Source: Aphrocallistes beatrix
Lineage: Eukaryota > Porifera > Hexactinellida > Sceptrulophora > Aphrocallistidae
NCBI GenBank assembly: GCA_963281255.1
Contig: OY725488.1
Location: 10,513,524 to 10,577,523, forward strand
Direction of reading: 5' to 3'
DNA length: 64,000 nt
Under the pieces are notes generated by a model, which ran no database searches, was not told the DNA's origin, and saw nothing but the letters and a program-made list of their open reading frames with translations. The position numbers and the translations under genes were made by a program. Positions 33,678 through 56,771 of the stretch are shown piece after piece; the first letter of the stretch is position 1; each line of letters opens with the position of its first letter.

Positions 33678-35579
33678 ATGATTACTGACATGAAACTGAT
33701 GGAATATCTTGCAGTATATCTGTCTATACTAATTATGTTGTCTCAGCATTTCATTCAAAATTCTAATGGACAGTCATGTAACACAATGTTACCAGCTAAC
33801 ACTCAAACAATATTGGATTCTAAAACTTATCATACAATTTCAGCTGGACAAATACAACCATTCAATATTCCTGGATGGATATGTATCGATGTAGACGGTA
33901 CTATATATGATCCACCAGATAGACTGAGATGGGAACCTGTCTTAACTACTGGTCAATGTGGTCCAGCGTATCTTTCTTGTCCTCAAAGAATGAATACTAT
34001 TGTAGATTCTAATAAAGAAATGAACTGGGTTGTGACTGACTATTACGAAACTGAAGGTAATGTTATTCATATTCGAGTTTTTTGTACCGGACTTTCAGCT
34101 TCAGAATTCCCTACAGATTGTAGAGATGCATTCCAAATATTCTACTACGAGTCTGATCAGAATATGACAATAACCAATTCTCTTCTCAGTCAGTTCCTAC
34201 CAGCTGATAGCAATAAGACAGTTAGTGGAGTTGTTAGTACTGAATTTACAAAATCCAAGAGAGGATTCTACATCGGATTCTTTAACAACATTCCATGTCC
34301 TGATTTAACTGAATTCCTCTTCTATTACTTTGAATGTCCAGCTATGAACACTTCTGATCTGTACTCTCTACCAGCTACACTAGCTCCTAACTCCACTGAG
34401 GTATTCGTCCGTGTGAACATCTCTTGTCCAACTAACTCTCTCCATCGAGACCCGCTGGGTCTGGTAGCAGAATGCTACTGGGACGGCACGTGGATACTTC
34501 CTGCTGAGAGTGTGTGTGAGTGTGAGGCTGGCTATTATCTGTCTGTGAGTAACGCTAACAGTAGTATGCCTTGTGTGATGTGTCGTGTTGACACGTACAA
34601 AAGTGAGACAGGCAATAGTGAGGAGTGTAGTGTGTGTCCTTTTCGTAGCAGCACGCGTGGAATGGAAGGAAGCAGTGAGTGCTTGTGTGATGAGGACTGG
34701 TATCGAGGAAAAGGAGAGAGTGTGAGTGAGAGCTGTGGACAGAGTCCTTCTGCAGTTGTGAATCTCCGTGTTGAGAGAGGAGACAGGATTGTATCTCGAG
34801 TTGTGTGGAATAAACCTTTGTTTTTGGGGAATCGAAGTGAGAATGAGTTGAGGTACAATGTGAGTTATTATCCGAGTTTAACTCCCTCGAGTGAGAAGAG
34901 TGTCAGAGATCTGGGAGAGACTGCGTTAGTGTTTAGCAGTGGAGATGTTGAAGACAGTACAGAGTATGTGTTTGTAGTGACGTCATGGAACTCAGTGAGT
35001 TGTGTGTCAGGTGTGTTTAACAGAGCTAATGTGACAGTGTTGTCTTCTTTCCCAACTCTACTCAACATTAGTTACAACGAGACTACTGGTTATCTTCAAT
35101 GGAGCTATGAACTGTATGGGAAGAGGGATTATGTGTTTGAAATAAGCTATACTACTACTGTGTCATCAATCTCTAATCGAATCGTATCGCAATTGCTGAA
35201 TTCCAATGAGTGTAACTGTTCCACTGAATATATATGTACCTGTATCCTATCCACTCCTGATCTAGACTCAACGTACAATGTAGCGTTTCGTTTATTAGTA
35301 AACCTTTCACAGAATTTAACAGGTATTAATCTCAATTTTTCGCATTCATTTATTCAATCTTCAAGATCTACACTCTTGCCATCATTCACGCCTTCAATTT
35401 CAATGCAAAGAATGCCATATTCTGGATATTCTCTGTTGCTAATATTGCAAGTTTTGATTGGAGTTTCGTTTGGTTTGTTTATCCTTTTATTTGTGTTTGT
35501 ATTTATATCTCTCCTAATTTGGATTCAGATCAAATGTTCCAAGAAATCTGATGGTTTTGCTTTTAAAATTTTTGATTGA
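33678..35579 (+). CDS. Kinase-less Eph-type receptor, gene 4
   Basis: A 633-aa type I membrane protein with the ectodomain of an Eph receptor but no kinase or SAM. Signal peptide about 1-31 (MKLMEYLAVYLSILIMLSQH). Eph-like ligand-binding domain about 33-222 (EMNWVVTDYYETEGN; CRDAFQIFYYESD; RGFYIGFFNNIPCP). Sushi/EGF-like cysteines 250-340. FN3 domains about 356-455 and 457-556. Ser/Thr stalk with SFTPS, TM helix about 585-616 (GVSFGLFILLFVFVFISLL), then 17-18 cytoplasmic residues ending KSDGFAFKIFD. The TM differs from that of the kinase-bearing genes, so this is not simply a premature stop. The ligand-binding domain differs from that of downstream gene 5 at only about ten positions. The likely role is binding the same ligand without forward kinase signalling (decoy, or partner in mixed clusters); this role is inferred. 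The start is chosen by alignment with genes 5 and 7. Confidence 0.92.
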   Translation: MITDMKLMEYLAVYLSILIMLSQHFIQNSNGQSCNTMLPANTQTILDSKTYHTISAGQIQPFNIPGWICIDVDGTIYDPPDRLRWEPVLTTGQCGPAYLSCPQRMNTIVDSNKEMNWVVTDYYETEGNVIHIRVFCTGLSASEFPTDCRDAFQIFYYESDQNMTITNSLLSQFLPADSNKTVSGVVSTEFTKSKRGFYIGFFNNIPCPDLTEFLFYYFECPAMNTSDLYSLPATLAPNSTEVFVRVNISCPTNSLHRDPLGLVAECYWDGTWILPAESVCECEAGYYLSVSNANSSMPCVMCRVDTYKSETGNSEECSVCPFRSSTRGMEGSSECLCDEDWYRGKGESVSESCGQSPSAVVNLRVERGDRIVSRVVWNKPLFLGNRSENELRYNVSYYPSLTPSSEKSVRDLGETALVFSSGDVEDSTEYVFVVTSWNSVSCVSGVFNRANVTVLSSFPTLLNISYNETTGYLQWSYELYGKRDYVFEISYTTTVSSISNRIVSQLLNSNECNCSTEYICTCILSTPDLDSTYNVAFRLLVNLSQNLTGINLNFSHSFIQSSRSTLLPSFTPSISMQRMPYSGYSLLLILQVLIGVSFGLFILLFVFVFISLLIWIQIKCSKKSDGFAFKIFD

Positions 35580-36357
35580 TTTTAACATTTATTTCAGAGA
35601 TTTCTGTGAAGCTCTTTTCGTTGTTTTATGTTTGTTTAGATCTTAGATATTTGCACTATCTGCATTTTGATGAATACTAGTTTTGCAATGGGTTTTTTTT
35701 GTTTGTCCAGATTTGATTGAGGAACTGGGAGATGCTAGAAATGTGAAATTTGGCACACAGGTAAATAATAATGAGTCTACGATTAAAGATCTAAGCGAAA
35801 TGTTGCCGAGATAGGTGACAAATTGTGCTGACCAATGAAATTCGTTTCTTTTATGATGCAAATACATTAGGATCAAACAGTAGTTATTATGCATACAATC
35901 AAAAGGACTATTTGTGATTGAAATTCATTGGTTCATGTGAGAACCAATCAATTATCAGACTTTTATAATGCGATTATTATATTTCATACAAATGATTGAA
36001 TACAGCTATTTGAGTCTATAATTTGATTGTTAAAAGTTATTTTATGGTCGAATTGATTGATCATAGCATGTAACACACTTTAATTGTTGTTAACGACATG
36101 AACTGGAATTGGTTGATTCAAATTGACCTTCCATTAAGGATTAGTTGACTTAATACGAAGTAAATTCTATTTATCACGAAATTTTCTGTTACGGTTCTGA
36201 TTTCATTAAAGTAACTACAGACAAATGACAATTCAGCATACTTAGTTGAGAACAAGAAAGTGACGTATTGTTTCTCTAATATGCCCAAGCACCCACTGGA
36301 CAACTCTGCGGACACGCAGTGTTCGCAAGCCGCGCAGCGAAAAACGATGCACGCTTG
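35580..36357 (+). mobile_element. 3' flank of gene 4 and Helitron-like element
   Basis: From about 35690 to 36357 a worn Helitron-like element runs in + orientation: GTTTGTCCAGATTTGATTG near the 5' end and the GC-rich end GCGGACACGCAGTGTTCGC ... CACGCTTG followed by T. The first 100 bases are the gene 4 3' flank, shared with gene 6. Confidence 0.55.
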
Positions 36358-37648
36358 TAGTTTATTAATACGTAATCCTACTTGAAACATTAGTTGAATA
36401 TAAGTACAAGTACTTAATTCTTATTTCATCATCATGCTCAAATGTATTCATTATTAATATGAAAAAGGATTAAAATTCTGAAGAATTTTGGAATAAATTC
36501 AGTGATGATTTCTCTCTTATTTAAGACTAAATCAGGATTTTCTATTGAACCGAATTGTTCCAAATTTGAACCATATAGTATATATTATATCATGGAGATT
36601 GAAGCCTGTGTATAAATAAATATTTAAAAATGTTCACATCTTTTCATAGGTAAAAATATATTAACCAATCTGAATCCAGAGATTTAAAGCTAAAATAAAC
36701 TATAAGACTTAAATATTCCTGAACTGGTAATTTTTTTTTCTAATAAGGATCCATATATTTTTCCACTAAATGAAATGAGAAATTGCGAGAAATGTCTACA
36801 AAAAATATTTATTCATGAATCAGCAATTTAGGAACTCCATTTCCGATTCAAATCAGTTAAATCATGCATTTTTCGCCGTAGCCGAGATAGAGTCATTAAC
36901 AGTACATGAATGATTAATGTTTTTTTTCTTGAGATCATTTATATTTCCAATTTCTGCTAATGCAAATGACTAATTGAATGGAATTTTAATTTTAGCTAAT
37001 TCACAACTATATTCCACCTAGGAGTCATTAATAATGCTGTGTTACTCAATACTTAGATATGTACCATGCACAATTGCTATCTTAATTTACTACAGAGAAA
37101 TTTGATCTCATAGTACAGCATAAGAAATAAAAGATCAAAATTTCCTTTTTTTAAAATTAGTAGTTCAATCTATAAGCGTAGATCAGTTTACAATGGAACC
37201 TACTACAATAGGCAGACAAGTTACCTGTATTATTCTCATTTTAACAATTCACATTGTTTAAATCGCCCAAGTCAACTTCAGTTTATACTTCCACTTGAAG
37301 ACACCAATCTATTATGCACAAGCATAATAGGCTCTGGTAGGGTTGTTAGGGCCATGAGCCTACAAATAATTTGTGGAAGGCTATTATCTTCCATTATCCA
37401 TAATATGATTCGTCCAAAAACCTGTCAATCATCATTCCGAGTCTACGCCCCGGTTAACAGGGTTGAATCCAGGCCTGAATTTCAGGGGAGGGGAAATGAG
37501 GTCCAAAATATTATCATGGGACCTGAGGGCTAACTGAGGGGGGAAGCTGCATTTGTCCGAATTGTTGAGTTGTCGTTTGTCCGAATGGATTTTTGTAAGT
37601 TCTGCATTTGTCCGAATGGAATTTTGTATGTTCTGCATTTGTCCGAAT
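36358..37648. other. Eph 5'-flank block upstream of gene 5
   Basis: No gene. From 36806 on it carries the repeated block, interrupted at about 37450 by unrelated sequence that includes a short tandem repeat of TTTGTCCGAATGGATTTTTG (37550-37649). Confidence 0.6.
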
Positions 37649-38060
37649 TAGGGCTTACAATCCCGTTCATATTTTTTAATCCCGGGATTTCGGGATTGAC
37701 ATTTTATCTAATTTCGGGATCCCGGGATTCCGAGATTGAAGTTTTTTTCCAAACCCGGGATCCCGGAATTAATTAGATTTTCGTACGTTTACTTTGAGGA
37801 TCGCTTTCAAGAATTTCGAAATTCCTACGCTTTGCCTGTATATCAATTTGATGTATTGATTTGAGATGTCCGTATAATCCCTTCGTAGACCCACCAACGC
37901 ATTTTAACACTTTTTTGCACACTTTGCATTGTGCAAATTTGCCACATAAGGATCGAAGAAAATGATTCCAGATCTCGACGCCATCAAAAATTTTAAATAC
38001 GGGGGTATTGCATTCTGCCATTTAGAGAGTATATTACGAAAAATGTATCTTATATACTAT
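37649..38060 (-). mobile_element. hAT transposon fragment with BED zinc finger
   Basis: The left end TAGGGCTTACAATCCCG and the following ATCCCGGGAT-rich 110 bp resemble the ends of the hAT MITEs at 4041 and 43439. It encloses the BED-finger ORF at 37773-38021. The other end was not found, so the right limit is approximate. Confidence 0.65.
37773..38021 (-). CDS. BED-type zinc finger protein fragment (hAT transposase N-terminus)
   Basis: An 82-aa minus-strand frame. WNHFLRSLCGKFAQCKVCKK followed by TKGLYGHLKSIH is a BED finger: aromatic WxxF start, C-x2-C, then H-x4-H. BED fingers of this kind open hAT transposases, where they bind the element ends. The catalytic hATC region is missing; the frame stops at SKRTKI and directly meets the terminal repeat, so this is an internally deleted copy. 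It may still express a DNA-binding peptide. Confidence 0.75.
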   Translation of the reverse strand: MAECNTPVFKIFDGVEIWNHFLRSLCGKFAQCKVCKKVLKCVGGSTKGLYGHLKSIHQIDIQAKRRNFEILESDPQSKRTKI

Positions 38061-38097
38061 TAGGGAAACCTATTTATAATCTACCTCACCGGAATCA

Positions 38098-38669
38098 TCC
38101 TTACTATTAAAACTCGATTGATGTTTGTTTGTTTGTGCATATATATACGTATATATCTATCTATCTGTAACGAATTGATTGAAGAAACTGCCAGGGACAG
38201 AAAGCTGATTTTTGGCATGTGAGAGTCTTTTGGCTATGGCTCCACTAAGTTCTGAGCTCAGAGCAAAATGTCGACTCATCATGGAATTATGACATCATTG
38301 TCACATTTTGAAAAGTTAAGCAATACAGTTATTCGAGCATAACTCAGCAATTATAGGAGATAGAAAGCTGAAATTTTAATAGAATCTGTATACTAACATA
38401 CCTCACATTTGATGCAACTATCATCAAAAAATGATGACTCATCACTTTGCTATTACGTCATCACTACATACGTCATCATTACAAAATTTAAAAAATTGAC
38501 AAATTGGGTGTTTTTTCGAGTGATATCGATTTTAAAACTAAGACGGACATATTTAGAGGTGATATCTTCCTTATAATTAACCAATGTCACCTCCAGGCGA
38601 CCGAAGGGAGCCTCTGGCGGACACAAAATGTCCGCCAGCCTCGCAGCGCAAGCAAGCGAAGCGCGCTTG
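38098..38669 (+). mobile_element. Helitron-like element upstream of gene 5
   Basis: Begins TCCTTACTATTAAAACTCG after an A and ends in the hairpin-bearing AGCGAAGCGCGCTTG before a T. A hairpin GGCGGACACAAAATGTCCGCC lies at 38616-38636. It is an inverted relative of 44354-45325. It ends about 270 bp before the gene 5 start codon. Confidence 0.7.
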
Positions 38670-38941
38670 TTATTATTAAATCATGTTATTGCTCAACACT
38701 GAATCCATATGAAAGTTGTAAAGAATTTATTGGTGAACATGAATCTGAATCTGAATCTGTATTTTAGATTGTTACTCACTAAACTATTATTAGAGAAATA
38801 CTAGGCCAGTACTTCCTATAGGAAATCACAAATGATTTAAGTCCAACTTACAAACTCGCTACAATTACGAACCCGTTCTTATATAAATTAATTATTTTTC
38901 AATTCTTCTTGCTATAGTTTGAGTATATTCAATTATTTAGA

Positions 38942-41900
38942 ATGATTACTGACATGAAACTGATGGAATATCTTGCAGTATATCTGTATATACTAATTAT
39001 GTTGTCTCAGCATTTCATTCAAACTTCTAATGGACAGTCATGTAACACAATGTTACCTGCCAACTCTAAAACAATATTGGATTCTAAAACTTATCATACA
39101 ATTTCAGCTGGACAAATACAACCATTCAATATTCCTGGATGGATAGAAATCGATGTAGACGGTACTATATATGATCCACCAGATAGACTGAGATGGGAAC
39201 CTGTCTTAACTACTGGTCAATGTGGTCCAGCGTATCTTTCTTGTCCTCAAAGAATGAATACTATTGTAAATTCTACTAAAGAAATGAACTGGGTTGTGAC
39301 TGACTATTACGAAACTGAAGGTAATGTTATTCATATTCGAGTTTTTTGTACCGGACTTTCAGCTTCAGAATTCCCTACAGATTGTAGAGATGCATTCCAA
39401 ATATTCTACTACGAGTCTGATCAGAATATGACAATAACCAATTCTCTTCTCAGTCAGTTCCTACCAGCTGATAGCAATAAGACAGTTAGTGGAGTTGTTA
39501 GTACTGAATTCACAAAATCCAAGAAAGGTTTTTTCATTGGATTCTTTAACCACATTCCATGTCCTGAATTGACTGAATTCCTTTTCTACTACTTTGAATG
39601 TCCAGCTACAAACACTTCAGATCTGTACTCTCTACCAGCTACACTAGCTCCTAACTCCACTGAGGTATTCGTCCGTGTCAACATCTCTTGTCCAACTAAC
39701 TCTCTCCATCGAGACCCGCTGGGTCTGGTAGCAGAATGCTACTGGGACGGCACGTGGATACTTCCTGCTGAGAGTGTGTGTGAGTGTGAGGCTGGCTATT
39801 ATCTGTCTGTGAGTAACGCTAACAGTAGTATGCCTTGTGTGATGTGTCGTGTTGACACGTACAAAGGTGAAACAGGCAATAGTGAGGAGTGCAGTGTGTG
39901 TCCTTTTCGTAGCAGCACGCGTGGAATGGAAGGAAGCAGTGAGTGCTTGTGTGATGAGGACTGGTATCGAGGAGAGGGAGAGAGTGTGAGTGAGAATTGT
40001 GGACAGAGTCCTTCTGCAGTTGTGAATCTCCGTGTTGAGAGAGGAGACAGGATTGTATCTCGAGTTGTGTGGAATGAACCTTTGTTTTTGGGATATCGAA
40101 GTGAGAATGAGTTGAAGTATAATGTGAGTTATTATCCGAGTTTAACTCCATCGAGTAAGAAGAGTGTCAGAGATCTGAGAGAGACTGAGTTAGTGTTGAT
40201 CAGTGGAGATGTTGAAGACAGTACAGAGTATGTGTTTGTAGTGACGTCATGGAACTCAGTGAGTTGTGTGTCAGGTGTGTTTAACAGAGCTAATGTGACA
40301 GTGTTGTCTTCTTTCCCAACTCTACTCAACATTAGTTACAACGAGACTACTGGTTATCTCCAATGGAGCTATGAACTGTATGGGAAGAGGGATTATGTGT
40401 TTGAAATAAACTACACTACTACTGTGTCATCAATCTCTAATCGAACAGTATCTCAACAACTAAACTCTGATGAATGTGAATGTTCTACTAATGTTCTATG
40501 TACCTGTATCTTATCTACTCCTGATCTAGACTCTATGGACAATGTGATATTTCGTTTACTGGTGAATGTTTCAGGAGATCTAATCGGTACTAATCTCAAA
40601 TTTTCCCACGCATTTATTCAATCTTCAACAAATTCCACTCTCTCCGCTACACTATTTCCCGAAATATTGTTTATTATTATTGGCGTTGTTGGTATCGTTA
40701 TTGCCTTTTTGATAATTATTTTCATCATTTTGATTATCGGATTCATGATTCGACGTCGAAAATCCGTTCGCTCTAAATTCTCACACCAAAAATTTGAAAA
40801 CACTGCTCTAAAAGGAACAAATCATTCTGATCCAATCCCTGAAAAGATATATCAAGATCCTAATACTATGTATCAAGACCTCAACGAAGCTGTGAGGTCA
40901 CTCACGAAAGAGTTGAATCATAGTAACATAAAAATAGAGAGAGTTATCGGGGAAGGGGAATTTGGAGAGGTGTGTAAAGGAACTCTTCAAGTTAATCACC
41001 GGACAGTTAAAGTTGCGATTAAAACTCTGAAACCGAATTGCAGTGAGAAGAGCAAGCAAGATTTCTTCAAAGAAGCCTCTGCCATGGCACAGTTCAGTCA
41101 TGAGAACGTGATCTATCTGTACGGAGTCACTCTCACTAAACCTATCATGATCGTGACTCCCTTCATGGAGAATGGCTCATTGGACAAGTTCCTCATTTGT
41201 AACAAGGGAAACATGCAGGTGATTGACTTAGGCAGAATTTGTCACGGTGTTGCTAGGGGAATGTGTTATCTGTCACGAATCGGATTCGTTCACCGAGATC
41301 TGGCAGCTCGAAATGTTCTCATTGATTCTAATATGGCAGCTAAGATCGCTGACTTTGGTTTGTCTCGTACGACAGAAGAAGATATCTACAACGTGAAGAC
41401 AGGTGGAAAGATTCCTGTTCGCTGGACAGCTCCTGAAGCTATTCTGTTTCGCAAGTTTAACATGGCATCAGATGTGTGGAGCTTTGGGGTGTTAATGTGG
41501 GAGGTGATGACTTCTGGAGATGTCCCATATGTCGACAAGGACAATTTCAAACTTCTGCAAGATATCCAACAAGGCTATCGTCTGGAACAGCCAAGTGACT
41601 GTCCAAACCAACTCTACCAACTCATGCTCAAGTGCTGGGACTCTGTGCCTGAAGTCAGACCTACATTCTCAGAGCTGGAGACTGAGATAACTGCTATGGT
41701 CGAGTTCAACTTCCTTCTCAAGCCTAAAGGTCGTCCTTCTAGGTCCACTGTGCAGAGTCCACTCAACTTCACATCCGTGGATGAATGGTTGAAACATCTG
41801 AACTTGGAGAGGTACAGTGTTAACTTCAAATCGCATGGGTACACGATGATCTCCTCTGTCTGGCACATGTCTGAGCATGATATCATGGCCATTGACATTC

Positions 41901-41986
41901 TGCCCGCTGGTCACAGGAACAAGATAATGAAGAGTATCCATGAAGCGAATAACAAACTTTCCCCTTCTTACTCAGTACTTGTTTAA
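38942..41986 (+). CDS. Eph-type receptor tyrosine kinase, gene 5, full length
   Basis: A 1014-aa receptor, intact and without introns. Signal peptide 1-32, Eph-like ligand-binding domain about 33-221, sushi/EGF-like region about 248-340, FN3 domains about 355-455 and 457-556, TM about 577-602 (VVGIVIAFLIIIFIILIIG), JM tyrosines Y637 and Y644 in KIYQDPNTMYQDLNEAV, kinase about 668-920 with GEGEFG, K694, HRD 784-786, DFG 804-806 and activation-loop tyrosine Y816, SAM about 942-1007, and a C-terminal YSVLV that fits a hydrophobic (class II) PDZ ligand. Ligand binding should trigger phosphorylation of the JM and loop tyrosines as in other Eph receptors. Differences from its paralogues in the loop (SRTTEED rather than SRETEED; DSNMAAKIADFG) are mild. 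It pairs with kinase-less gene 4 through a near-identical ligand-binding domain. Confidence 0.96.
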   Translation: MITDMKLMEYLAVYLYILIMLSQHFIQTSNGQSCNTMLPANSKTILDSKTYHTISAGQIQPFNIPGWIEIDVDGTIYDPPDRLRWEPVLTTGQCGPAYLSCPQRMNTIVNSTKEMNWVVTDYYETEGNVIHIRVFCTGLSASEFPTDCRDAFQIFYYESDQNMTITNSLLSQFLPADSNKTVSGVVSTEFTKSKKGFFIGFFNHIPCPELTEFLFYYFECPATNTSDLYSLPATLAPNSTEVFVRVNISCPTNSLHRDPLGLVAECYWDGTWILPAESVCECEAGYYLSVSNANSSMPCVMCRVDTYKGETGNSEECSVCPFRSSTRGMEGSSECLCDEDWYRGEGESVSENCGQSPSAVVNLRVERGDRIVSRVVWNEPLFLGYRSENELKYNVSYYPSLTPSSKKSVRDLRETELVLISGDVEDSTEYVFVVTSWNSVSCVSGVFNRANVTVLSSFPTLLNISYNETTGYLQWSYELYGKRDYVFEINYTTTVSSISNRTVSQQLNSDECECSTNVLCTCILSTPDLDSMDNVIFRLLVNVSGDLIGTNLKFSHAFIQSSTNSTLSATLFPEILFIIIGVVGIVIAFLIIIFIILIIGFMIRRRKSVRSKFSHQKFENTALKGTNHSDPIPEKIYQDPNTMYQDLNEAVRSLTKELNHSNIKIERVIGEGEFGEVCKGTLQVNHRTVKVAIKTLKPNCSEKSKQDFFKEASAMAQFSHENVIYLYGVTLTKPIMIVTPFMENGSLDKFLICNKGNMQVIDLGRICHGVARGMCYLSRIGFVHRDLAARNVLIDSNMAAKIADFGLSRTTEEDIYNVKTGGKIPVRWTAPEAILFRKFNMASDVWSFGVLMWEVMTSGDVPYVDKDNFKLLQDIQQGYRLEQPSDCPNQLYQLMLKCWDSVPEVRPTFSELETEITAMVEFNFLLKPKGRPSRSTVQSPLNFTSVDEWLKHLNLERYSVNFKSHGYTMISSVWHMSEHDIMAIDILPAGHRNKIMKSIHEANNKLSPSYSVLV

Positions 41987-43438
41987 CTCTTGCGTTTAGA
42001 GGCCTAATTTTAATTGTATATTAGACTTAGGGCACTAGCTATTATATGTACATATGGATTCTTAGTTTAATTTTAAGATTTCATACCTTCTTTTTACTTG
42101 CTCTTTATACATTATGATTTGATAGTTGATCTAGTATATTTGTGTGAATATATCTATAAAAGTTTTTGGTAGTATTTGGGAAGAAGACATAAAATGTCAG
42201 TCGAAAAACTGATAATGTTGCTCCATTAAGTGACTCATAAGAGACAAAATGTGATATTTGAAACCTGCATAATGAATACAATATAGTATTAAGGGAGACC
42301 TCGTTTGTTAATTTACATAATATTTAGTACACTACCCCCTCGATAATCCGAACGCTTTATTTTTAAAGTCCGAACACATATAATATCATTCGCCTCTATG
42401 CTTTGAATAAACCGTTTATAAACTTATATCTATCAATAAAATAGAGAAACCTCTTTAAATATGCAATCATACGAAATAATATCCTTAATTTTCTAACAAT
42501 ACAAATTTATTATATTTAATGCCCGCCCTATTAAATTAGTGTTATTTCACTAATCGGAACAAATTCACTAATCCGAACGATTATATTGATCTTTGGAACA
42601 GAGTTGTTCGGATTAGCGAGGGTGTACTGTAATGCTATAATTGAATTAGAAGCATTCTTTCCATGTCAATCAGTCAGACTTCAAGTTTAGGAACTATGAT
42701 TTTTTTAATGTGCATTGAGTTAGATATAATCTCTATTGGTGAGAATTTAAAGCCAACTGTAAAATCAGAACCCTGAAATTTCATTGTCCAGCGGAGTATG
42801 GATTTTTAAACAATTTTTCATTTCAACTTATCACATTTCAAATATATAGCATGATTCTAATTTGAAACTTCTGTAATGCTCTATTTGTTGTTTTATACTC
42901 GTTTCGATTTCAGATATGTGTTTGCATTGATGATGCGAACCGTTTTTTATAGAACAAAATAAATCAATGACTTAATTTATAAACAAGTTCACATTAACCT
43001 CTGTAATATTAAGCATGATTCATTGTGCCATGCTAACATCCTAAATACCAACAGAGTTCCTACACTTGCACCGTAATTTAAAGTAAGGGAGCTGCATTCA
43101 ATCCATTACCCACAAACATCCTTGTTCATTCTGTTAGAGTTAAGTATTTGTTTTACTCTTGATTAATTGTTCAGTTTACACTTCGTTACTAAGATACAAC
43201 TGTCCGACCACCCAACTAGTTAGATCAGTATCTGTCACGCCGTAACAGGTCCGGCCGGATCATCCACGGCAGCCGTGGATGGTCCCCCCTATTAATATTA
43301 CATGAAATGTGCTCTCGTAACATTGTAGTATTTGCATTTTTACTTTAGTATATTGTCTCAATCAATCTATTTGGCAATACATTAAATAGGGGTAGGCCCA
43401 ACCAATATTTGGTGACAATAATTTATGAAGCTTAGAAC
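41987..43438 (+). other. 3' flank of gene 5 with one MITE
   Basis: Matches the 3' flanks of genes 1 and 2 to about 42900, but has no mariner there. Beyond 42920 the sequence is unique; nothing recognised. Confidence 0.65.
42330..42629. mobile_element. 300-bp pogo/Tigger-like MITE
   Basis: The ends CACTACCCCCTCGATAATCC and GGATTAGCGAGGGTGTACTG lie between TA dinucleotides. The paralogous 3' flanks of genes 1 and 2 read ATATTCAGTAATGC / ATATTTAGTAATGC, the empty site with one TA. Confidence 0.9.
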
Positions 43439-44024: not shown

Positions 44025-44128
44025 CTTAGAACCTTAATAGAGAGAAATAATAATATAACACTTCACTCATACATCATTCAATATCGTTCTCTGATTCAAT
44101 AATTAAGTCTAGTAGGTATGTATATAAA

Positions 44129-44209: not shown

Positions 44210-44353
44210 TTATTTACAAACTTTGACTATAAATTCTAATGTAGTTCAACTTTTATTGTTACTTGTTTGTGTTTACTTTGTATGATAAACATATAATATA
44301 AGATGAATTTACGTAGATGCATGTGATGAGTTTCTCATAATAATTAATGAGTA

Positions 44354-47118: not shown

Positions 47119-47591
47119 AGGACTAAAAACTTCTAGAATGGAACGAGGTTTATACTCCAATAAAATCTAAACTGTTTTCTAAGTCCAGAAATGCATCTAT
47201 TGTAGTTTTCTTGAAAATTATACGAAATGTGCATTAGAACATACATTAGGAACTGGATTTATGGTTTATATGCCTATATAGCGATACGTACATGCTAGAG
47301 TGGAAAAATATTCTAGATTGTAACACGATTGATTTGGCAATTTGAGCTAACTTAGTTCTGCTGATTTGTTCCGAGTAGCGGGAAACTAAAGTAGATTTAC
47401 TCTAATTGAGCCTACCATGCTTATTTACAGATGAATGTCTAAGTCTGACAACCATATCTATCTTTAATTAGTTTATATAATCAAACAGGGGGAAATATAT
47501 ATACTATATTCGCACCCATTTACGTTTATACATTACATATAATTGTATTATCAATCATTTTTTATAATAAATGATTATATTTTATGATAGC
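47119..47591 (+). promoter_or_regulatory. Upstream region of gene 6
   Basis: AT-rich and unlike the other Eph upstream regions except for ATGATAGC directly before the ATG. No gene seen. Confidence 0.35.
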
Positions 47592-49538
47592 ATGATTACA
47601 AACATAAAACTAAACCTGACGAAATATCTCGCAGTATATTTGTATATACTAATGATGTTGTCTCAGCATTTAATTCAACTTTCTAATGGACAGATATGTA
47701 ACACAATGTTACCTGCTAACTCTCAAACAATCTTGGATTCTAAAACTTATTATAATATTGATAACACTGGACACCCACAACCATTTCTAATTTCTGGATG
47801 GATGCTTATCGATGAAGACGGAATTATATATAATACACCAGAAAGATTTCGATGGCAAGCTCTTTTAAATAGTCGTGTATGTGGTCCAGAATATCGTGCT
47901 TGTGTTCTAGGAACTGTTAATATTGTAAATTCTAGTCAAGAAATGAACTGGATTGTAACAAGTTATTACGAGAATGAAGGTAATGTTATTCATATCCGAG
48001 TTATGTGTACACTTCTTACAGGAACAGGATTCGCTACAGATTGTAGAGACGCATTCCAAATATTCTATTACGAGTCTGATCTGAGTATGACAATAACCAA
48101 TTCTCTTCTCAGTCAGTTCCTACCAGCTGATAGCAATAAGACAGTTAGTGGGGTTGTTAGTGCTGAACTCACAAAATCCAAGAGAGGATTCTACATCGGA
48201 TTCTTTAACAACATTCCATGTCCTGAATTGACTGAAATCCTCTTCTACTACTTTGAGTGTCCAGCTACAAACACTTCAGATCTGTACTCTCTACCAGCTA
48301 CACTAGCTCCTAACTCCACTGAGGTATTCGTCCGTGTGAATATCTCTTGTCCAACTAACTCTCTCCATCGAGACCCGCTCCGTCTGGTAGCAGAATGCTA
48401 CTGGGACGGCACGTGGATACTTCCTGCTGAGAATGTGTGTGAGTGTGAGGCTGGCTATTATCTGTCTGTGAGTAATGCTAACAGTAGTATGCCTTGTGTG
48501 ATGTGTCATGTTGACACGTACAAAGGTGAGACAGGCAATAGTGAGGAGTGTAGTGTGTGTCCTTTTCGTAGCAGCACACGTGGCATGGAAGGAAGCAATG
48601 AGTGCTTGTGTGATGAGGACTGGTATCGAGGAGAAGGAGAGAGTGTGAGTGAGAGTTGTGGACAGAGTCCTTCTGCAGTTGTGAATCTCCGTGTTGAGAG
48701 AGGAGACAGGATTGTATCTCGAATTGTGTGGGATAAACCTTTGTATTTGGGATATCGAAGTGAGAATGAGTTGAGGTACAATGTGAGTTATTATCCGAGT
48801 TTAAATCTCTCGAGTGAGAAGAGTGTGAGAGATCTGAGAGAGACTGAGTTAGTGTTGAGCAGTGGAAATGTTGAAGACAGTACAGAGTATGTGTTTGTAG
48901 TGACGTCATGGAACTCAGTGAGTTGTTTGTCTGGTGTGTTTAACAGAGCTAATGTGACAGTGTTGTCTTCTTTCCCAACTCTACTCAACATTAGTTACAA
49001 CGAGACTACTGGTTATCTGCAATGGAGCTATGAACTGTATGGGAAGAGGGATTATGTGTTTGAAATAAGCTATACTACCACCATGTCATCAATCCCTAAT
49101 CGAACCGTATCTCAACAACTAAACTTTGATAAGTGTGAATGTTCCACTAACATCCTATGTACTTGTATACTATATACTCCTGACCTAAACTATACGCACA
49201 TTGTATTATTTCGTTTACTGGTAAATATTTCAGGAGATTTAATTGTAACTAATCTCAATTTCTTTCATTCATTTACTCCATCTTCAAGATCTACACTCGC
49301 ACCATCATTCACGCCATTGTTCACACCATCATTCACACCATCATTCACGCCATCATTTTCAATGCAAACAATTCCATCTTCTGGATATTCGCTTTTGCTA
49401 GTATTGCAAGTGTTGGTTGGCGTTTCGTTCGGTTTGTTTATCCTTTTATTTGTGTTTGTATTTCTTTCTCTCCTAATTTGGATTCAGAAGAAATGTTTTA
49501 AGAATTCTGAAGTTATTGCTTTTGAAAAATTTTACTGA
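47592..49538 (+). CDS. Kinase-less Eph-type receptor, gene 6
   Basis: A 648-aa membrane protein with the same plan as gene 4. The start at 47592 (MITNIKLN) aligns with the other genes; an in-frame ATG at 47571 would only add seven residues before the signal peptide. Signal peptide about 1-33, Eph-like ligand-binding domain about 35-225, sushi/EGF-like region, two FN3 domains, a Ser/Thr/Pro stalk with a short repeat (SFTP four times; DNA 49305-49355), TM about 600-631 (VGVSFGLFILLFVFVFLSLL) and a 17-residue tail ending EVIAFEKFY. The ligand-binding domain differs from that of neighbouring gene 7 at about six positions only. The frame is intact and there is no trace of a kinase downstream. The role as decoy or co-receptor is inferred. 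Confidence 0.92.
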   Translation: MITNIKLNLTKYLAVYLYILMMLSQHLIQLSNGQICNTMLPANSQTILDSKTYYNIDNTGHPQPFLISGWMLIDEDGIIYNTPERFRWQALLNSRVCGPEYRACVLGTVNIVNSSQEMNWIVTSYYENEGNVIHIRVMCTLLTGTGFATDCRDAFQIFYYESDLSMTITNSLLSQFLPADSNKTVSGVVSAELTKSKRGFYIGFFNNIPCPELTEILFYYFECPATNTSDLYSLPATLAPNSTEVFVRVNISCPTNSLHRDPLRLVAECYWDGTWILPAENVCECEAGYYLSVSNANSSMPCVMCHVDTYKGETGNSEECSVCPFRSSTRGMEGSNECLCDEDWYRGEGESVSESCGQSPSAVVNLRVERGDRIVSRIVWDKPLYLGYRSENELRYNVSYYPSLNLSSEKSVRDLRETELVLSSGNVEDSTEYVFVVTSWNSVSCLSGVFNRANVTVLSSFPTLLNISYNETTGYLQWSYELYGKRDYVFEISYTTTMSSIPNRTVSQQLNFDKCECSTNILCTCILYTPDLNYTHIVLFRLLVNISGDLIVTNLNFFHSFTPSSRSTLAPSFTPLFTPSFTPSFTPSFSMQTIPSSGYSLLLVLQVLVGVSFGLFILLFVFVFLSLLIWIQKKCFKNSEVIAFEKFY

Positions 49539-50069
49539 TTTTATCATTTATTTCAGAGATTTGTGTGATGCTCTATTTTTTTTGTTTAGATTTTAGACTT
49601 TTGCACAATTTTGCATTTTCATGAGTATTAGTTTTTTTTTTAAAATACCTAAACAGCCAAAATTTACTTCAAAAGTAACACAGCAGTTCATTAATGAGCC
49701 TACTTCACACATTATTAAGTGGGGTGGAATCTTTAACTCTTATTATTATCCTAATATTTTACTTACTCTTTATCGTTAAGAAATTCCGAGTTTACAATCA
49801 CATTCCATCGTTTTTTTATTATTCGCGGTTTGTTATTAGTTTGGTTTATTCTTATTCTTTTGATTTGCAAAGAAATACGTAGTAAGAAAAAAACGGTTTC
49901 AAGTAAAATCTTAACCCACACAAATTTGCGAAATTTGCACATTCCACACAAACTTATTTACACTCTTATAAACTAATAATATACTCTGTCTGGATAAAGG
50001 TATTTGAACGGATTGTCAAATTCCATTAATTAGATTCAATCTGTCAATTCCTGGGAGGAAATGTTTCTA
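49539..50069. other. 3' flank of gene 6
   Basis: The first part is shared with genes 3 and 4 (TTTATCATTTATTTCAGAG). No gene seen beyond it. Confidence 0.5.
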
Positions 50070-50349
50070 CAGGGTGACAGTTCTGATACGAGCTCAAACA
50101 GTCTTAGTTATTATGGTCTTTAGAGATTGTTATTCGAATACTTTCAACGATTTAAAAATATTTTTCGAGTCTGAGACCTAGAACTGTGTTTTGTATGGTG
50201 GAGTTTGGTGAATAAAAAATGTGTTCTGCCACGCAGCGAAAATCGCAAATCAGGTCCCGCTGCTTCTGTATAAATTGTCTAACATAATCGATGTTCCATG
50301 ACAATTTAACACCAGATACCTTTCATTCACCATAGAAATCTTTCACGAA
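50070..50349. mobile_element. Half of the palindromic TA-type MITE
   Basis: Starts CAGGGTGACA after TA and follows the left arm of the element in gene 3 (29567) to about 50349, where it joins a piece of a pogo-like MITE (CTCGTTAATACGAAC). The second arm is missing. Confidence 0.75.
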
Positions 50350-51323
50350 TCCATTGACTCTCGTTAATACGAACACCAGGAGACCAATGAAATTTGTTCA
50401 TATTATCCGGGATCCGTATTAATCGGAGTGATTGGAATGTATATTTATTTGTGGGGATAAATAATTTGTTGGTCTTGTCCTGAGTTACGAAAATTTCACA
50501 AGTCTATTATATTCGTAATGCTCCATAAGTGAAACAAGGTTTGATAAAATACAAAGATGGAATAATTAACTCAATACTTACATATTGACTGGATTTGATT
50601 ATTTAAGTATAATAATATTTAGCAATGTGAACTTTGTGTATTCAAATTGAGCTTACATTCAGGATTAGTTGACTTAATACGAAGTAAATTATATTCATCA
50701 CGAAACAAAAATTCTTCTACAGTTCTGATTTCAGAAATGTAACCGTAGATAAATACAATCCAGCGTACTTAGTATAAAACAAGAAAGCGACGTATTGATT
50801 CTCTAATATCCGCAAGCTCCCACTGGGTAAATCTGCAGACACGCAGTGTTTGCAAGCCGCGCAGCGCAAGCAAGCGAAGCTCGCTTGTATTAATTAAAAT
50901 GATTTCCAAATGCAATACATACAAACTGTATATAACCGCACCCCAAACCAGAGATACCAACTCTCATGGAATCACTGAGTTTACAAATATATTACGGTAG
51001 CATGGTCTCACGGACAATTACCCAATCTTAAGAATTTTCTTATTTTAGCCCCAAATTATTACCATTTTATATTTTGACACGAATTTATGAATGGACAAAT
51101 AAAAGCTGGGTGGATACTATTTATGAACTTCATTTGCCTGGACCATTTTAGGGTTTCAATTTCAAGATATAAATTCTAAAAATAAATTTTTATTCACATA
51201 TTTCAGATCAATTTAAAATTTGAATCGTTACTCAAAAGGCAAATTCTAATGTAAGTGCGTGTACCACTGTTGGGGCTCCTGCCATGTTTGGCAATCGTTC
51301 AGGATTTCGGGCACGAGTGAAAG
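50350..51323. other. Spacer with two transposon fragments
   Basis: 50350-50430 is one end of the pogo-like MITE family seen whole at 57811-57967. 50636-50887 is the 3' part of a Helitron-like element ending GCGAAGCTCGCTTG before T. The rest is unrecognised. Confidence 0.55.
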
Positions 51324-51450
51324 TAGGGGCGTAGCCAGTGGCGCCGACAAGGGCCTGCGAGGCTACGGTCCGTCTTAACTGGGCCTGCAGAAACATTTTC
51401 TGGGTCTGCAGGATATTTAGTGGGCCTGCAGGCCTATTGGCTATGCCTAT
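51324..51450. mobile_element. 127-bp hAT-type MITE
   Basis: Ends TAGGGGCGTAGCCAGTGG and CCTATTGGCTATGCCTA, flanked by GAGTGAAAG on both sides (51315-51323, 51451-51459). It is GC-richer than its surroundings. Confidence 0.8.
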
Positions 51451-51459
51451 GAGTGAAAG

Positions 51460-51550
51460 CAGTCAATCCTGATACTAAGCATATCCACTGCATGATACAC
51501 AGATATGCTCTGGCATCTAAGACGCTACCATCTGAGCTAAAAGCCCCCTT
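51460..51550 (-). repeat. tRNA-like start, possibly a SINE or tRNA relic
   Basis: The minus strand reads GGGGGCTTTTAGCTCAGATG then GTAGCG, with a perfect RNA polymerase III A box (TAGCTCAGATGG). No B box at the expected distance and no matching acceptor 3' strand nearby, so it is not a working tRNA gene. Confidence 0.35.
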
Positions 51551-51658
51551 GACGATGTAATCAATATGGTCAATTTCATCAAGTCAAGCACTCTCAATAC
51601 TGGTCTATTTTCACCGATTATTATGCCAAGCTAGATTTGAATCGAGGATACCTGGACT

Positions 51659-51985
51659 TTTCCTTTCGCCTCAGGGGGCACGCAGTTCGTAAAAGGTTGA
51701 GAACCCCTGGTGTAAATCATTGGATTCGAAAAAATACCTTATCATCCAACCTGTTATATCAATAAATGGATGAAATGGAAATAAATTTGATTTAATTTGT
51801 TCCGAATAAATTATCAATGAAAAAACAACCTTGAATATATTGTTAAGTTCTCCAATCTGATATTGCGAAGCCTTTACCCGAAAGTTCTTCTTGGCGTGAC
51901 AGGTCTTCTTCGACTCGAGAACGTACTTTGGATACACATTGTGTGTAAGAAAGTCTGAGATTGCACTGTACTCGTCTGCGTTCAT
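51659..51985 (-). other. Mobile-element coding fragment next to a hAT end
   Basis: The minus-strand frame from 51985 (MNADEYSAISDFLTHNVYPK) resembles the N-terminal lead-in of integrase-type proteins of mobile elements, but the match is from memory and weak. Its far end overlaps a hAT-Charlie-like terminus (CCAGGGGTTCTCAACCTTTT). The fragment looks broken; the family is not settled. Confidence 0.25.
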
Positions 51986-52371
51986 CTTCGCGAATTACAA
52001 TGCTGCTACTTCATACAATATGTAGTGAAAAATTCTGCTTTGAAAAGGTCTGTTTCTGAATTCTGCTTTGGGTAGTTGGTACATTAAAGAATCAACAATT
52101 TATGTTATCAACTAAAAATTCAATAATGCAGAATATCCCTATTGCAGTAAGAAAAGTGAGTTAGAATCACACGGTAGTAGAATATCCCTGGTCTAGTAAT
52201 ACTAATGAGTTCAAATCACACGGTGAGTTAAAAACGCACGAAACAGCGCTCTTTGGACAACACGGCTCCAAATTTATCAACGAACTTGCACAAACGAATA
52301 ATATATAATATATCCCTGTATTTTGTTGAATTTCCAAATTAAATGAAAAATTATAATAAATGCTTACATAA
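51986..52371. other. No recognised feature
   Basis: AT-rich, no gene seen. Confidence 0.4.
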
Positions 52372-53666
52372 GAATATTTTTTCATGGATCAGCAATTGTG
52401 GAACTCCTTTCCCGGCTGCAATCGCAGTTTTAAATCATACATTTTTGCCGTAGCCGAGATAGAGCAATTAACATATTTATGAATGATTAATAACCTTTGT
52501 TCCTGGCTATATCTGTTTCCCGATATTAGCTAATACAATCGACTAAATTAATGAAACTTTATTTTTTAGCTGATACAAGTAACAACTCCTATATTCTATA
52601 TAGAGAGTCATTAATATTACTCTTATACTCAATACGTAGATAAGTACTATATACAGTTACAATACTTCATTTATTACAGAGAAATTTGATCTCATAGTTC
52701 AGCATAAAAAGGATAAGACCAAAATTTCCTTTCTCTGAATTAGTAGTTCAATCTATAAACTTGCTATAGCAGGTTAAAATATAACCTACCAAAATAGGCA
52801 GACAAGTTAGGTTGTATTATTCTCATTTTAACATTTCACATTGTTCAAATCACTTTGTTTTTTCAGGGCATGCTTAATTTCCTGGACGGGACGGCATCCC
52901 GTTCCGGAAATTAGGTATCTAAACCCGTACCGTCCCGGAAATTAGGTACCTTTTCTGTCCCGTCCCGGAGATTAGACATCTTGACTCGTCCTGTCCTGGA
53001 AATTAGGTACCTGATGGTTCCGTCCCGTCCTGGAAATTAGGCATCTTAACTCGTCCCGTCCCGTCCCGGAAATTAGGCATGCCCAATCATTATGTATAAG
53101 TATAGTAGGCTCTGGTAGGGTTGGTAAAGCTACTGCCTTACAGATAATTCGTCGAAGGCGACTATTTCCCTTTATCCACAATACGATTTGTCACAAAAAA
53201 ACTACAAATCCTCATCCTGAGTCTACTTTCCTGTTATGGGTCTGTAGGTTTTATCAATGAGTTCTTACAATAAATCAAGGTTAATGGCAGTGGATTCATA
53301 TGAATAGGGAAATTAATTTGTGTATTCGCTAGATGAAGGTGTGGATTCCTTCTAGAAGCTTAGATGAGGTAGGCTCAGTTCGCACAAGAACCCAATACCT
53401 GTCAAGGTACATGTCCTTTGAACACTAACATTTTAATAAATAACCGGATTTGGAATCAGGCCAACTATTCAGAACCTGACCCGAATCTAAATCCGCATTC
53501 AAGTTTGTTATCTTCGACACTGAACAGCTATGGATTAGCAAAATACACATAGCATAGGTCAAGACTAGCGAGAATGAGTTAAGCCAAATTTGCAGCCACT
53601 TCTAGTATGTAAATTGAATACTTTTAATTCTTCTTAATATAGCTTGATTGTACTAAATGATATAGC
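52372..53666 (+). promoter_or_regulatory. Eph 5'-flank block of gene 7
   Basis: Nearly complete copy of the repeated block, split by a hAT MITE at 52864-53085. Ends TAATATAGCTTGATTGTACT then AAATGATATAGC before the ATG, the best-preserved conserved leader. Confidence 0.5.
52864..53085. mobile_element. hAT-like MITE with internal tandem units
   Basis: Ends CAGGGCATGCTTAATTTCC and GGAAATTAGGCATGCCC are inverted. The interior is five or six copies of CCGTCCCGGAAATTAGGTAC. It sits inside the 5' flank of gene 7, about 580 bp from the start codon. Confidence 0.7.
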
Positions 53667-56600
53667 ATGATTACTAGCATGAAACTGATGGAATGTCTCG
53701 CAGTATATTTGCCAATACTAGTGATGTTGCCCCAACATTTAGTTCAACCCGCTAATGGACAGATATGCAACACAATGTTACCTGCTAACTCGCAAACAAT
53801 CTTGGATTCTAATACTTATCATAATATTGATAACACTGGACACCCACAACCATTTCTAATTTCTGGATGGATGCTTATCGATGAAGACGGAATTATATAT
53901 AATACACCAGAAAGATTTCGATGGCAAGCTCTTTTAAATAGTCGTGTATGTGGTCCAGAATATCGTGCTTGTGTTCTAGGAACTGTTAATATTGTAAATT
54001 CTAGTCAAGAAATGAACTGGGTTGTTACAAGTTATTACGAGAATGAAGGTAATGTTATTCATATTCGAGTTATGTGTACACTTCTTACAGGAACAGGATT
54101 CGCTACAGATTGTAGAGACGCATTCCAAATATTCTATTACGAGTCTGACCAGAGTATGACAATAACCAATTCTCTTCTCAGTCAGTTCCTACCAGCTGAT
54201 AGCAATAAGACAGTTAGTGGGGTTGTTAGTGCAGAATTCACAAAATCCAAGAGAGGATTCTACATCGGATTCTTTAACAACATTCCATGTCCTGAATTGA
54301 CTGAAATCCTCTTCTACTACTTTGAATGTCCAGCTACAAACACTTCAGATCTGTACTCTCTACCAGCTACACTAGCTCCTAACTCCACTCAGGTATTCGT
54401 CCGTGTGAACATCTCTTGTCCAACTAACTCTCTCCATCGAGACCCGCTCCGTCTGGTAGCAGAATGCTACTGGGACGGCACGTGGATACTTCCTGCTGAG
54501 AGTGTGTGTGAGTGTGAGGTTGGCTATTATCTGTCTGTGAGTAATGCTAACAGTAGTATGCCTTGTGTGATGTGTCATGTTGACACGTACAAAGGTGAGA
54601 CAGGAAATAGTGAGGAGTGTAGTGTGTGTCCTTTTCGCAGCAGCACACGTGGCATGGAAGGAAGCAGTGAGTGCTTGTGTGATGAGGACTGGTATCGAGG
54701 AGAGGGAGAGAGTGTGAGTGAGAGTTGTGGACAGAGTCCTTCTGCAGTTGTGAATCTCCGTGTTGAGAGAGGAGACAGGATTGTATCTCGAGTTGTGTGG
54801 GCTGAACCTTTGTATTTTGGGAATCGAAGTGAGAATGAGTTGAGGTACAATGTAAGTTATTATCCGAGTTTAACTCCCTCGAGTGAGAAGAGTGCCAGAG
54901 ATCTGGGAGAAACTGCGTTAGTGTTGAGCAGTGGAGACGTTGAAGACAGTACAGAGTATGTGTTTGTAGTGACGTCATGGAATTCAGTGAGTTGTGTGTC
55001 TGGTGTGTTTAACAGAGCTAATTTGACAGCGTTGTCTTCTTTCCCAACTCTACTCAACACTAGTTACAACGAGACTACTGGTTATCTTCAATGGAGCTAT
55101 GAACTGCATGGGAAGAGGGAGTATGTGTTTGAAATAAGCTATACTACTACTGTGTCATCAATCTCTAATCGAACTGTATCACAACAACTAAACTCTGATG
55201 AGTGCGAATGTTCCACTAATGTTCTATGTACCTGTCTTTTATCTACTCCTGACCTTAACTCAGCGCACAATGTAGCGTTTCGTTTATTAGTAAATATTTC
55301 AAGCAATTTAATAGGCACTAATCTCAATTTTTCACATTCATTTACTCCACCTTCAAGATCTACACTCACACCATCATTCACGCCATCTACAAATTCTACT
55401 CCATCCCCATCACTAACTGCATCATCCATCCCGACTTCCGCAGCATTTTATCCGTTTGTTATTATTGGCGTTGTTGGTGTCGTTATTGCCCTTTTGATTG
55501 TTATTATTTTGATTTTGATTATCGGATTCATGATTCGACGTCGAAAATCCGTTCGCTCTAAATTCTCACACCAAAAATTTGATAACACTGCACTAAAAGG
55601 AACAAATCATTCTGATTCAATCCCTGAAAAACTATATCAAGATCCTAATACTATGTATCAAGACCTCAACGAAGCTGTGAGGTCACTCACGAAAGAGTTG
55701 AATCCTAGTAACATAAAAAAAGAGAGAACTATTGGGGAAGGGGAATTTGGAGAGGTTTGTAAAGGAACTCTTCAGGTCAATTACCGGACAGTTCAAGTTG
55801 CGATTAAAACTCTGAAACCGAATTGCAGTGAGAAGAGCAAGCAAGACTTCTTCAAAGAAGCCTCCGCCATGGCTCAGTTCAGTCATGAGAACGTGATCTA
55901 TCTGTACGGAGTCACTCTCACTAAACCTATCATGATCGTAACTCCATTCATGGAGAATGGTTCATTGGACAAGTTCCTTATTTGCAATAAAGGAAACATG
56001 CTTGTGATTGACTTGGGTAAAATTTGTCACGGTATTGCTAGAGGCATGTGTTATCTGACACGAATCGGCTTCGTTCACCGAGATCTGGCAGCTCGAAATG
56101 TGCTCATTGATACTGATCTCACAGCTAAGATCGCTGACTTTGGTTTGTCTCGTGAGACAGAGGAAGATATCTACAACGTGAAGACAGGTGGTAAGATTCC
56201 TGTTCGCTGGACTGCTCCTGAAGCTATTCTGTATCGCAAGTTTAACATGGCATCAGATGTGTGGAGCTTTGGAGTGCTAATGTGGGAAGTGATGACTTCT
56301 GGAGATGTCCCATATGTCGACAAGGACAATTTCAAACTTCTGCAAGATATCCAACAAGGCTATCGTCTGGAACAGCCAAGTGACTGTCCAAACCAACTCT
56401 ACCAACTCATGCTCAAGTGCTGGGACTCTGTGCCTGAAGTCAGACCTACATTCTCAGAGCTGGAGACTGAGATATCTGCTATGGTTGAGAACAACTTCCT
56501 TCCCAAGCCTAAAGGTCGTCCTTCTAGGTCCACTGTGCAGAGTCCCCTCAACTTCACATCCGTGGATGAATGGTTGAAACATCTGAACTTGGAGAGGTAC

Positions 56601-56771
56601 ACTGTTAACTTTAAATCGCATGGCTACACGATGATCTCCTCTGTCTGGCACATGTCTGAGCATGATATCATGGCCATTGACATTCTGCCCGCTGGTCACA
56701 GGAACAAGATAATGAAGAGTATCCATGAAGCGAATAACAAACTTTCTCGCACTTATTCAGTGCATGTTTGA
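53667..56771 (+). CDS. Eph-type receptor tyrosine kinase, gene 7, full length
   Basis: A 1034-aa receptor, intact. Signal peptide 1-32; Eph-like ligand-binding domain about 33-222; sushi/EGF-like region about 249-346 (CECEVGYYL ... CPFRSSTRGMEGSSECLCDE); FN3 domains about 357-456 and 458-558; Ser/Thr/Pro stalk 559-596; TM 597-622; JM tyrosines Y657 and Y664; kinase about 688-940 with GEGEFG 690-695, K714, Glu of helix C near 731, HRD 804-806, DFG 824-826 and Y836 in the loop; SAM about 962-1027; C-terminus YSVHV, again a hydrophobic PDZ-type end. The stalk joins the SRSTL-PSFTPS text of kinase-less genes to the NSTPSPSLT text of kinase genes. Its ligand-binding domain is almost that of kinase-less gene 6. 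Unlike genes 1, 2 and 5 its 3' flank is unique. Confidence 0.96.
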   Translation: MITSMKLMECLAVYLPILVMLPQHLVQPANGQICNTMLPANSQTILDSNTYHNIDNTGHPQPFLISGWMLIDEDGIIYNTPERFRWQALLNSRVCGPEYRACVLGTVNIVNSSQEMNWVVTSYYENEGNVIHIRVMCTLLTGTGFATDCRDAFQIFYYESDQSMTITNSLLSQFLPADSNKTVSGVVSAEFTKSKRGFYIGFFNNIPCPELTEILFYYFECPATNTSDLYSLPATLAPNSTQVFVRVNISCPTNSLHRDPLRLVAECYWDGTWILPAESVCECEVGYYLSVSNANSSMPCVMCHVDTYKGETGNSEECSVCPFRSSTRGMEGSSECLCDEDWYRGEGESVSESCGQSPSAVVNLRVERGDRIVSRVVWAEPLYFGNRSENELRYNVSYYPSLTPSSEKSARDLGETALVLSSGDVEDSTEYVFVVTSWNSVSCVSGVFNRANLTALSSFPTLLNTSYNETTGYLQWSYELHGKREYVFEISYTTTVSSISNRTVSQQLNSDECECSTNVLCTCLLSTPDLNSAHNVAFRLLVNISSNLIGTNLNFSHSFTPPSRSTLTPSFTPSTNSTPSPSLTASSIPTSAAFYPFVIIGVVGVVIALLIVIILILIIGFMIRRRKSVRSKFSHQKFDNTALKGTNHSDSIPEKLYQDPNTMYQDLNEAVRSLTKELNPSNIKKERTIGEGEFGEVCKGTLQVNYRTVQVAIKTLKPNCSEKSKQDFFKEASAMAQFSHENVIYLYGVTLTKPIMIVTPFMENGSLDKFLICNKGNMLVIDLGKICHGIARGMCYLTRIGFVHRDLAARNVLIDTDLTAKIADFGLSRETEEDIYNVKTGGKIPVRWTAPEAILYRKFNMASDVWSFGVLMWEVMTSGDVPYVDKDNFKLLQDIQQGYRLEQPSDCPNQLYQLMLKCWDSVPEVRPTFSELETEISAMVENNFLPKPKGRPSRSTVQSPLNFTSVDEWLKHLNLERYTVNFKSHGYTMISSVWHMSEHDIMAIDILPAGHRNKIMKSIHEANNKLSRTYSVHV

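Follow-up and report, generated by a model that had tools for sequence, protein, structure and literature searches.

Kinase-less protein architectures containing an Eph ligand-binding domain (LBD) have been reported in sponges, cnidarians and ctenophores, with adhesion proposed as their role, and the LBD and kinase trees of sponge Eph proteins disagree (Krishnan et al. 2019, PMC6485061). The locus described here, a tandem array of seven Eph-like genes in a 64,000-nucleotide (nt) stretch of the hexactinellid sponge Aphrocallistes beatrix (contig OY725488.1, positions 10,513,524 to 10,577,523; hereafter the window), has kinase-less Eph LBD architectures in common with those non-bilaterian proteins, and in two cases a kinase-less gene carries nearly the same LBD as the kinase gene that follows it. 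Sections 5 and 6 of PMC6485061 describe neither tandem short/kinase pairs nor a matching of their LBDs, and the word 'tandem' is absent from its main text. Among the matches listed in the open-licence literature, no title concerned LBD matching between short and kinase Eph genes arranged in tandem pairs.

In vertebrates, the kinase-dead receptors EphA10 and EphB6 are said to act via other Eph proteins, and kinase-lacking splice forms are said to have altered activity (PMC6993872). These proteins and the sponge short genes are alike in being Eph receptors without kinase output. However, EphA10 and EphB6 retain a kinase domain and the short isoforms arise by splicing of a single gene, whereas in the window the short and kinase forms are separate genes with different transmembrane (TM) segments and tails. 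For the paired receptors CD300A and CD300C, gene conversion has been described as keeping the extracellular parts alike (PMC12447643). The sponge pairs share with these a common binding head, different signalling tails, a neighbouring position and conversion confined to the extracellular domain. They differ in that CD300A and CD300C are Ig-fold proteins with activating or inhibitory tails, whereas the sponge pairs combine an Eph LBD with a tyrosine kinase tail in one member and a tail without a recognized motif in the other, and two pairs with different heads adjoin each other.

In the Brassica S locus, the secreted SLG protein is similar to the SRK encoded by the same haplotype. The SRK, SLG and SCR genes are linked (PMC10316313). 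Both there and here, a receptor kinase gene has a linked kinase-less companion whose recognition domain is similar, and this domain varies between units; the Brassica units are allelic and built on the S-domain, whereas the sponge units are tandem genes built on an Eph LBD, and their short members have a TM segment. The ligand gene, SCR, belongs to the linked set in Brassica, but comparison of 20 ORFs (open reading frames) or ORF pieces of the window with Pfam revealed no ephrin ligand domain, a scan that did not extend to other ORFs or spliced genes.

Two short/kinase pairs have matched ligand-binding domains

All seven genes lie on the forward strand in the order 1K, 2K, 3S, 4S, 5K, 6S and 7K, where K denotes a kinase-bearing Eph-like gene (n = 4 in the window) and S a kinase-less one (n = 3). 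Four of them, 4S (33678–35579), 5K (38942–41986), 6S (47592–49538) and 7K (53667–56771), are intact single open frames, and their ORF coordinates place the kinase-less gene directly upstream of the kinase gene, on the same strand, in both pairs, as a first-pass annotation of this DNA had stated. The 4S frame encodes a signal region, an Eph LBD, a cysteine-rich part and two FN3-like parts (FN3-1 and FN3-2), and ends in its own TM segment, seen as a TM peak, and a tail of ~18 residues without a kinase; 6S is kinase-less and follows the same plan. In 5K, an ectodomain of the 4S type is followed by a K-type TM segment, juxtamembrane tyrosines, a tyrosine kinase in which the catalytic motifs are present, a SAM domain and the C-terminus SVLV; 7K follows this plan and terminates in SVHV.

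The LBD was taken as amino acids (aa) 34–212 in 5K numbering. By alignment, the LBD of 4S (33777–34322) is the counterpart of that of 5K (39041–39586), and the LBD of 6S (47697–48245) that of 7K (53766–54314). Only 9 of 179 residues differ within 4S/5K and 5 of 180 within 6S/7K, close to the ten and six or so counted in the first pass. Between pairs, 48–52 of 179 residues differ, and the wide divergence that had been noted for the N-terminal half was recovered (34–35 of 79 residues, against 13–18 of 100 in the C-terminal half). A tree of the LBDs of the window genes did not unite the short genes, but grouped 4S with 5K and 6S with 7K, each with 100% support. The two adjacent matched short/kinase pairs originally described therefore stand, yet the match is limited to the LBD and adjoining ectodomain, and the 5' flank, FN3-2, TM segment and tail show different histories. 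Each pair has a near-identical ligand-binding part, different tails and neighbouring genes, the arrangement of paired receptors.

Extent of the copied tract

Synonymous divergence (dS, Nei–Gojobori; paired values are for 4S/5K, then 6S/7K) changes sharply along the genes. Within pairs it is 0.045 and 0.039 in the N-terminal part of the LBD (aa 34–112), where the between-pair values for this half are 0.23–0.29. It amounts to 0 and 0.096 over aa 113–147, 0.140 and 0.052 over aa 148–212, and 0.074 and 0.070 over the cysteine-rich part plus FN3-1, and reaches 0.488 and 0.349 in FN3-2; the comparison of aa 34–147 with FN3-2 within pairs gives P = 8e-8 and 2.5e-4 (Fisher tests on rounded counts). 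At the other end, pair members differ at 22 of 51 and 23 of 55 positions over the 60 nt preceding the ATG, compared with 7 of 420 and 8 of 423 sites in nt 120–539. A recent duplication of the whole gene would have kept both the flank and FN3-2 alike, and it is therefore the LBD part that was copied. In 4S/5K the shared tract opens at roughly the ATG, with very few differences up to nt 570; in 6S/7K it opens at ~nt 86, close to where the signal region ends.

Beyond the LBD, the cysteine-rich part plus FN3-1 is homogenized across genes 4–7 (dS 0.07–0.12), whereas aa 34–147 of the LBD retain a between-pair dS of 0.23–0.49 (P = 0.0006–0.004 against the adjoining segment, Fisher tests on rounded counts). 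The spacers between S and K genes contain three collinear stretches common to both pairs, with 76–82% identity. These hint at an old duplication of the S–K unit, weakly so because parts of the same stretches recur elsewhere in the window.

Conflicting histories along the genes

The four intact genes contain 182 informative quartet sites, of which 93 support the split 45/67 (4S with 5K, 6S with 7K), 76 the split 46/57 and 13 the split 47/56. These sites are clustered in blocks. The longest unbroken runs comprise 83 sites for 45/67, in the LBD, and 56 sites for 46/57, in the TM region; none of 10,000 shuffles of site order matched the observed low number of runs (18) or the length of the longest. 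Likelihoods calculated on fixed topologies, given here as log-likelihood differences without P values, place 45/67 ahead by 122.8 in the LBD and by 13.4 in the cysteine-rich part plus FN3-1, 47/56 ahead by only 3.3 in FN3-2, and 46/57 ahead by 82.6 in the TM and juxtamembrane segment. In segment trees, 4S+5K and 6S+7K received support of 60 and 47 in the cysteine-rich part plus FN3-1, and 2K+5K received 97 in FN3-2. Across two bins covering the TM region, pair members differ at 58 of 115 and 60 of 115 sites, whereas 4S differs from 6S at 14 of 115 and 5K from 7K at 9 of 120; from about aa 564 onwards the S and K sequences are unrelated. From these sequence comparisons, the best account of the LBD match within pairs is that gene conversion recently copied an LBD cassette, against a background of older S and K lineages, and that conversion keeps the ectodomain alike, as in paired receptors.

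The stalk of 7K (55340–55390), just before the TM segment, is short-gene-like, and 3S and 7K are 91% identical in one 100-column bin. Since a K-type TM segment follows this S-like stalk, the point at which S-type gives way to K-type sequence has itself moved in 7K.

Domain assignment and the remaining array genes

Pfam matches to kinase, EphA2_TM and SAM models were obtained for 5K and 7K, with all three above cut-off in 5K. Kinase E values are 8.7e-94 (5K) and 6.2e-93 (7K), those for SAM_2 1.4e-12 and 2.8e-13, giving the order of an Eph-type kinase followed by SAM, and the EphA2_TM scores of 37.2 and 39.0 bits (cut-off 28.9) identify an Eph-type TM/juxtamembrane segment. Of the top 60 PDB matches to 5K, 43 are Eph kinases, at ranks 2–44. 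Neither kinase nor SAM was matched by Pfam in 4S and 6S; the matches of 4S are Ephrin_lbd and Ephrin_rec_like, each below its curated cut-off. Ephrin_lbd scores of 18.3–23.8 bits in 4S, 5K, 6S and 7K fall under the curated cut-off of 27, which is exceeded only in 2K (28.0). A profile built from five array LBDs matched the EphA4 LBD at 2e-4, and its 37 matches are all Eph chains bar weak matches to AlfC (E about 1). Judged by eye, the LBDs apparently retain all four cysteines that form the two Eph disulphides. The Eph domains of the array, divergent yet still identifiable, would fit an early-branching animal such as a sponge. The FN3-like parts gave no FN3 match in Pfam and no match in PDB. AlphaFold2 models of the LBD and FN3-like part (mean predicted local distance difference test scores of 38.4 and 34.1) were both too poor for use. 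Pattern matches to the 5K ectodomain occur in viral contigs (2 stretches) and prokaryote contigs (6), none of them confirmed as relatives.

The short genes 4S and 6S share a strong TM peak and a similar tail of the length given above. Truncation of kinase genes was ruled out as their origin, the TM segment and tail being different from those of the K genes. Nor do they correspond to splice-made short Eph isoforms, as they are separate ORFs with a different 5' flank, FN3-2, TM segment and tail.

Three further genes of the array are also on the forward strand. The kinase-less copy 3S (29210–31921) carries frameshifts and an LBD interrupted by an insertion at 29565–30340, a palindromic element with arms of 181 nt that are 97% complementary and with similar stretches near 50093–50366; its LBD is unmatched. 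The kinase copy 2K (11439–14476) has a frameshift early in the kinase (~13590) and an unmatched, apparently mosaic LBD (11538–12080), whose diagnostic sites are 4/5-like at 29 of 41 positions up to aa 102 and at 6 of 32 thereafter, the remainder being 6/7-like. A runs test on 2K, carried out earlier, was not significant (795 of 10,000 shuffles), and the maximum chi-square was reached in 2 of 10,000; for 3S the corresponding figures are 1008 (not significant) and 391 of 10,000. Only 2K is called mosaic here, on the basis of the maximum chi-square, the second statistic tried. The kinase copy 1K (1–2065) has an open kinase frame, and its 5' part, including the LBD, lies beyond the window start. 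A decayed C-terminal kinase/SAM-like fragment with internal stops (61123–61494, forward strand) has only 36–38% identity to 5K and 7K, which makes it a relative of greater age than the genes of the array.

Selection and the recognition surface

The ratio of nonsynonymous to synonymous divergence (dN/dS) between pairs is 1.39–1.52 over aa 50–106 (four comparisons) and 0.24–0.44 over aa 113–147, 148–460 and 461–565; the kinase is constrained (0.13–0.20 among 1K, 5K and 7K). Fixed differences between the pairs occupy 44 of 183 LBD columns. When these were placed on EphA2 by eye, using tryptophan and cysteine residues, they accounted for 14 of the 28 columns of the D-E region, between the Trp and Cys matched to EphA2 W52 and C70, 4 of the 8 columns corresponding to EphA2 35–41 and 6 of the 13 G-H loop columns. 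Enrichment in the interface gives P = 0.087 for the segments taken from Krishnan et al. (PMC6485061, section 6) alone and P = 0.007 when the G-H loop, our own addition, is included. A concentration of the between-pair differences at the predicted ligand interface is thus no more than suggested by these data.

Interpretation and alternatives

Two old gene types coexist in the array: K, with its TM segment, juxtamembrane tyrosines, kinase and SAM domain, and S, with its own TM segment and short tail. On the sequence evidence, the LBD has recently been copied between the adjacent S and K genes by conversion or a comparable ectopic exchange, resulting in a recognition surface that is common to the members of a pair and different between the two pairs. 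Most likely, the S protein would be anchored in the membrane and share the ephrin-like ligand of its K neighbour, and by competing for this ligand or by joining mixed receptor clusters it could lower or redirect kinase output. A matched S LBD would preserve the relation between S and K when the specificity of K changes. From sequence, we infer a shared ligand within each pair, with S acting as competitor, cluster partner or adhesion protein. That conversion keeps the LBDs of a pair matched and the pairs distinct, with S binding the ligand of its K neighbour and modulating kinase output, is on balance the account we favour, with some reserve.

Several observations weigh against it. The matched pairs take in only two of the three short genes and two of the four kinase genes; 3S and 2K are both broken and unmatched, which leaves just two pairs in one sequence. 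Over aa 148–212, 4S is no nearer to 5K than to 6S (dS 0.140 versus 0.136), and by these synonymous values the 4S/5K tract ends inside the LBD. Positive selection on the LBD was not demonstrated, the nonsynonymous proportion exceeding the synonymous one in only 82.7–87.0% of codon bootstraps; between-pair dN/dS falls to 0.97–1.26 when the whole of aa 34–112 is considered, and over aa 50–106 it is 1.14 for 2K versus 5K and 0.93 for 2K versus 7K. The J-K equivalent (EphA2 151–168) contains no column fixed differently between pairs (0 of 18), and the TM segment and tail of the S genes are only weakly constrained (dN/dS about 0.54).

Some of these points would equally be expected from neutral conversion between neighbours in a tandem array, without any functional matching of ligand specificity: the pairs number just two, the dN/dS of the LBD does not significantly exceed 1, and the homogenized cysteine-rich part plus FN3-1 was converted across genes 4–7 regardless of S or K type. 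However, the LBD escaped the homogenization seen in this adjoining segment, and the paired short genes are both intact, whereas the broken genes with an LBD in the window are both unmatched (n = 4 in all), so that we regard neutral conversion as rather unlikely. The short forms might instead be adhesion or co-receptor molecules that bind the same ligand and convert contact into sticking or a signal of their own, without dampening the kinase. This is a possibility from which we lean away: adhesion has been proposed for kinase-less non-bilaterian Eph proteins (PMC6485061) and the short tail has a similar form in 4S and 6S, but that tail has no identified motif and evolves under the weak constraint noted above.

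Very little speaks for the short genes being the 5' portion of a longer transcript to which a kinase exon is joined by splicing. An acceptor-like TTTCAG follows the stop codon of both 4S and 6S, and a small 3' intron is accordingly possible, but the S genes have their own TM segment and tail, unrelated to those of K, a tblastn search with the four genes (E 1e-5) detected no kinase-like stretch between either S stop and the next gene, and 5K and 7K are complete single frames. This makes splicing to a kinase exon most improbable. Near-identical tandem copies are hard to assemble, and misjoined copies or two haplotypes placed in tandem could mimic an array; such an artefact is nevertheless highly unlikely, given that the window contains no N, that the members of each pair still differ at the 9 and 5 LBD residues counted above and that the tracts start at different points in the two pairs. 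Tandem haplotypes in particular were rejected, since the S–K spacers can be aligned only in part and are too different for alleles of one unit.

If the conversion-matched pairing of S and K is correct, the paired-receptor principle (same head, different tail, matching by conversion) would extend to the Eph family, outside vertebrate immunity and probably to an early-branching animal, and LBD exchange between neighbouring genes would be a possible mechanism for the published conflict between LBD and kinase trees of sponge Eph proteins. 4S/5K and 6S/7K would also offer concrete pairs for probing the function of kinase-less Eph proteins. By analogy with SRK and SLG, one might go further and imagine the array as an animal recognition locus, in which polymorphic LBD types arise by conversion and mosaic exchange, each pair forms a recognition unit, units vary between individuals, and a nerveless animal uses Eph–ephrin contact to tell self from non-self or to recognize partners; to this speculative extension we attach little credence.

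Other elements in the window

A candidate tRNA-Met predicted by ARAGORN on the reverse strand (23113–23197) is doubtful, because it has no Rfam match at gathering scores and overlaps a tandem repeat. The start of a THAP-domain protein lies at 63797–63961 (Pfam THAP, 2.3e-07), its frame running towards the window end. Two transposase ORFs on the reverse strand (2916–3845 and 15299–16109) match Transposase_1, the first with a Mos1-type helix-turn-helix; they sit in a common flank downstream of 1K and 2K, which is alike up to ~3803 and ~16193, respectively.

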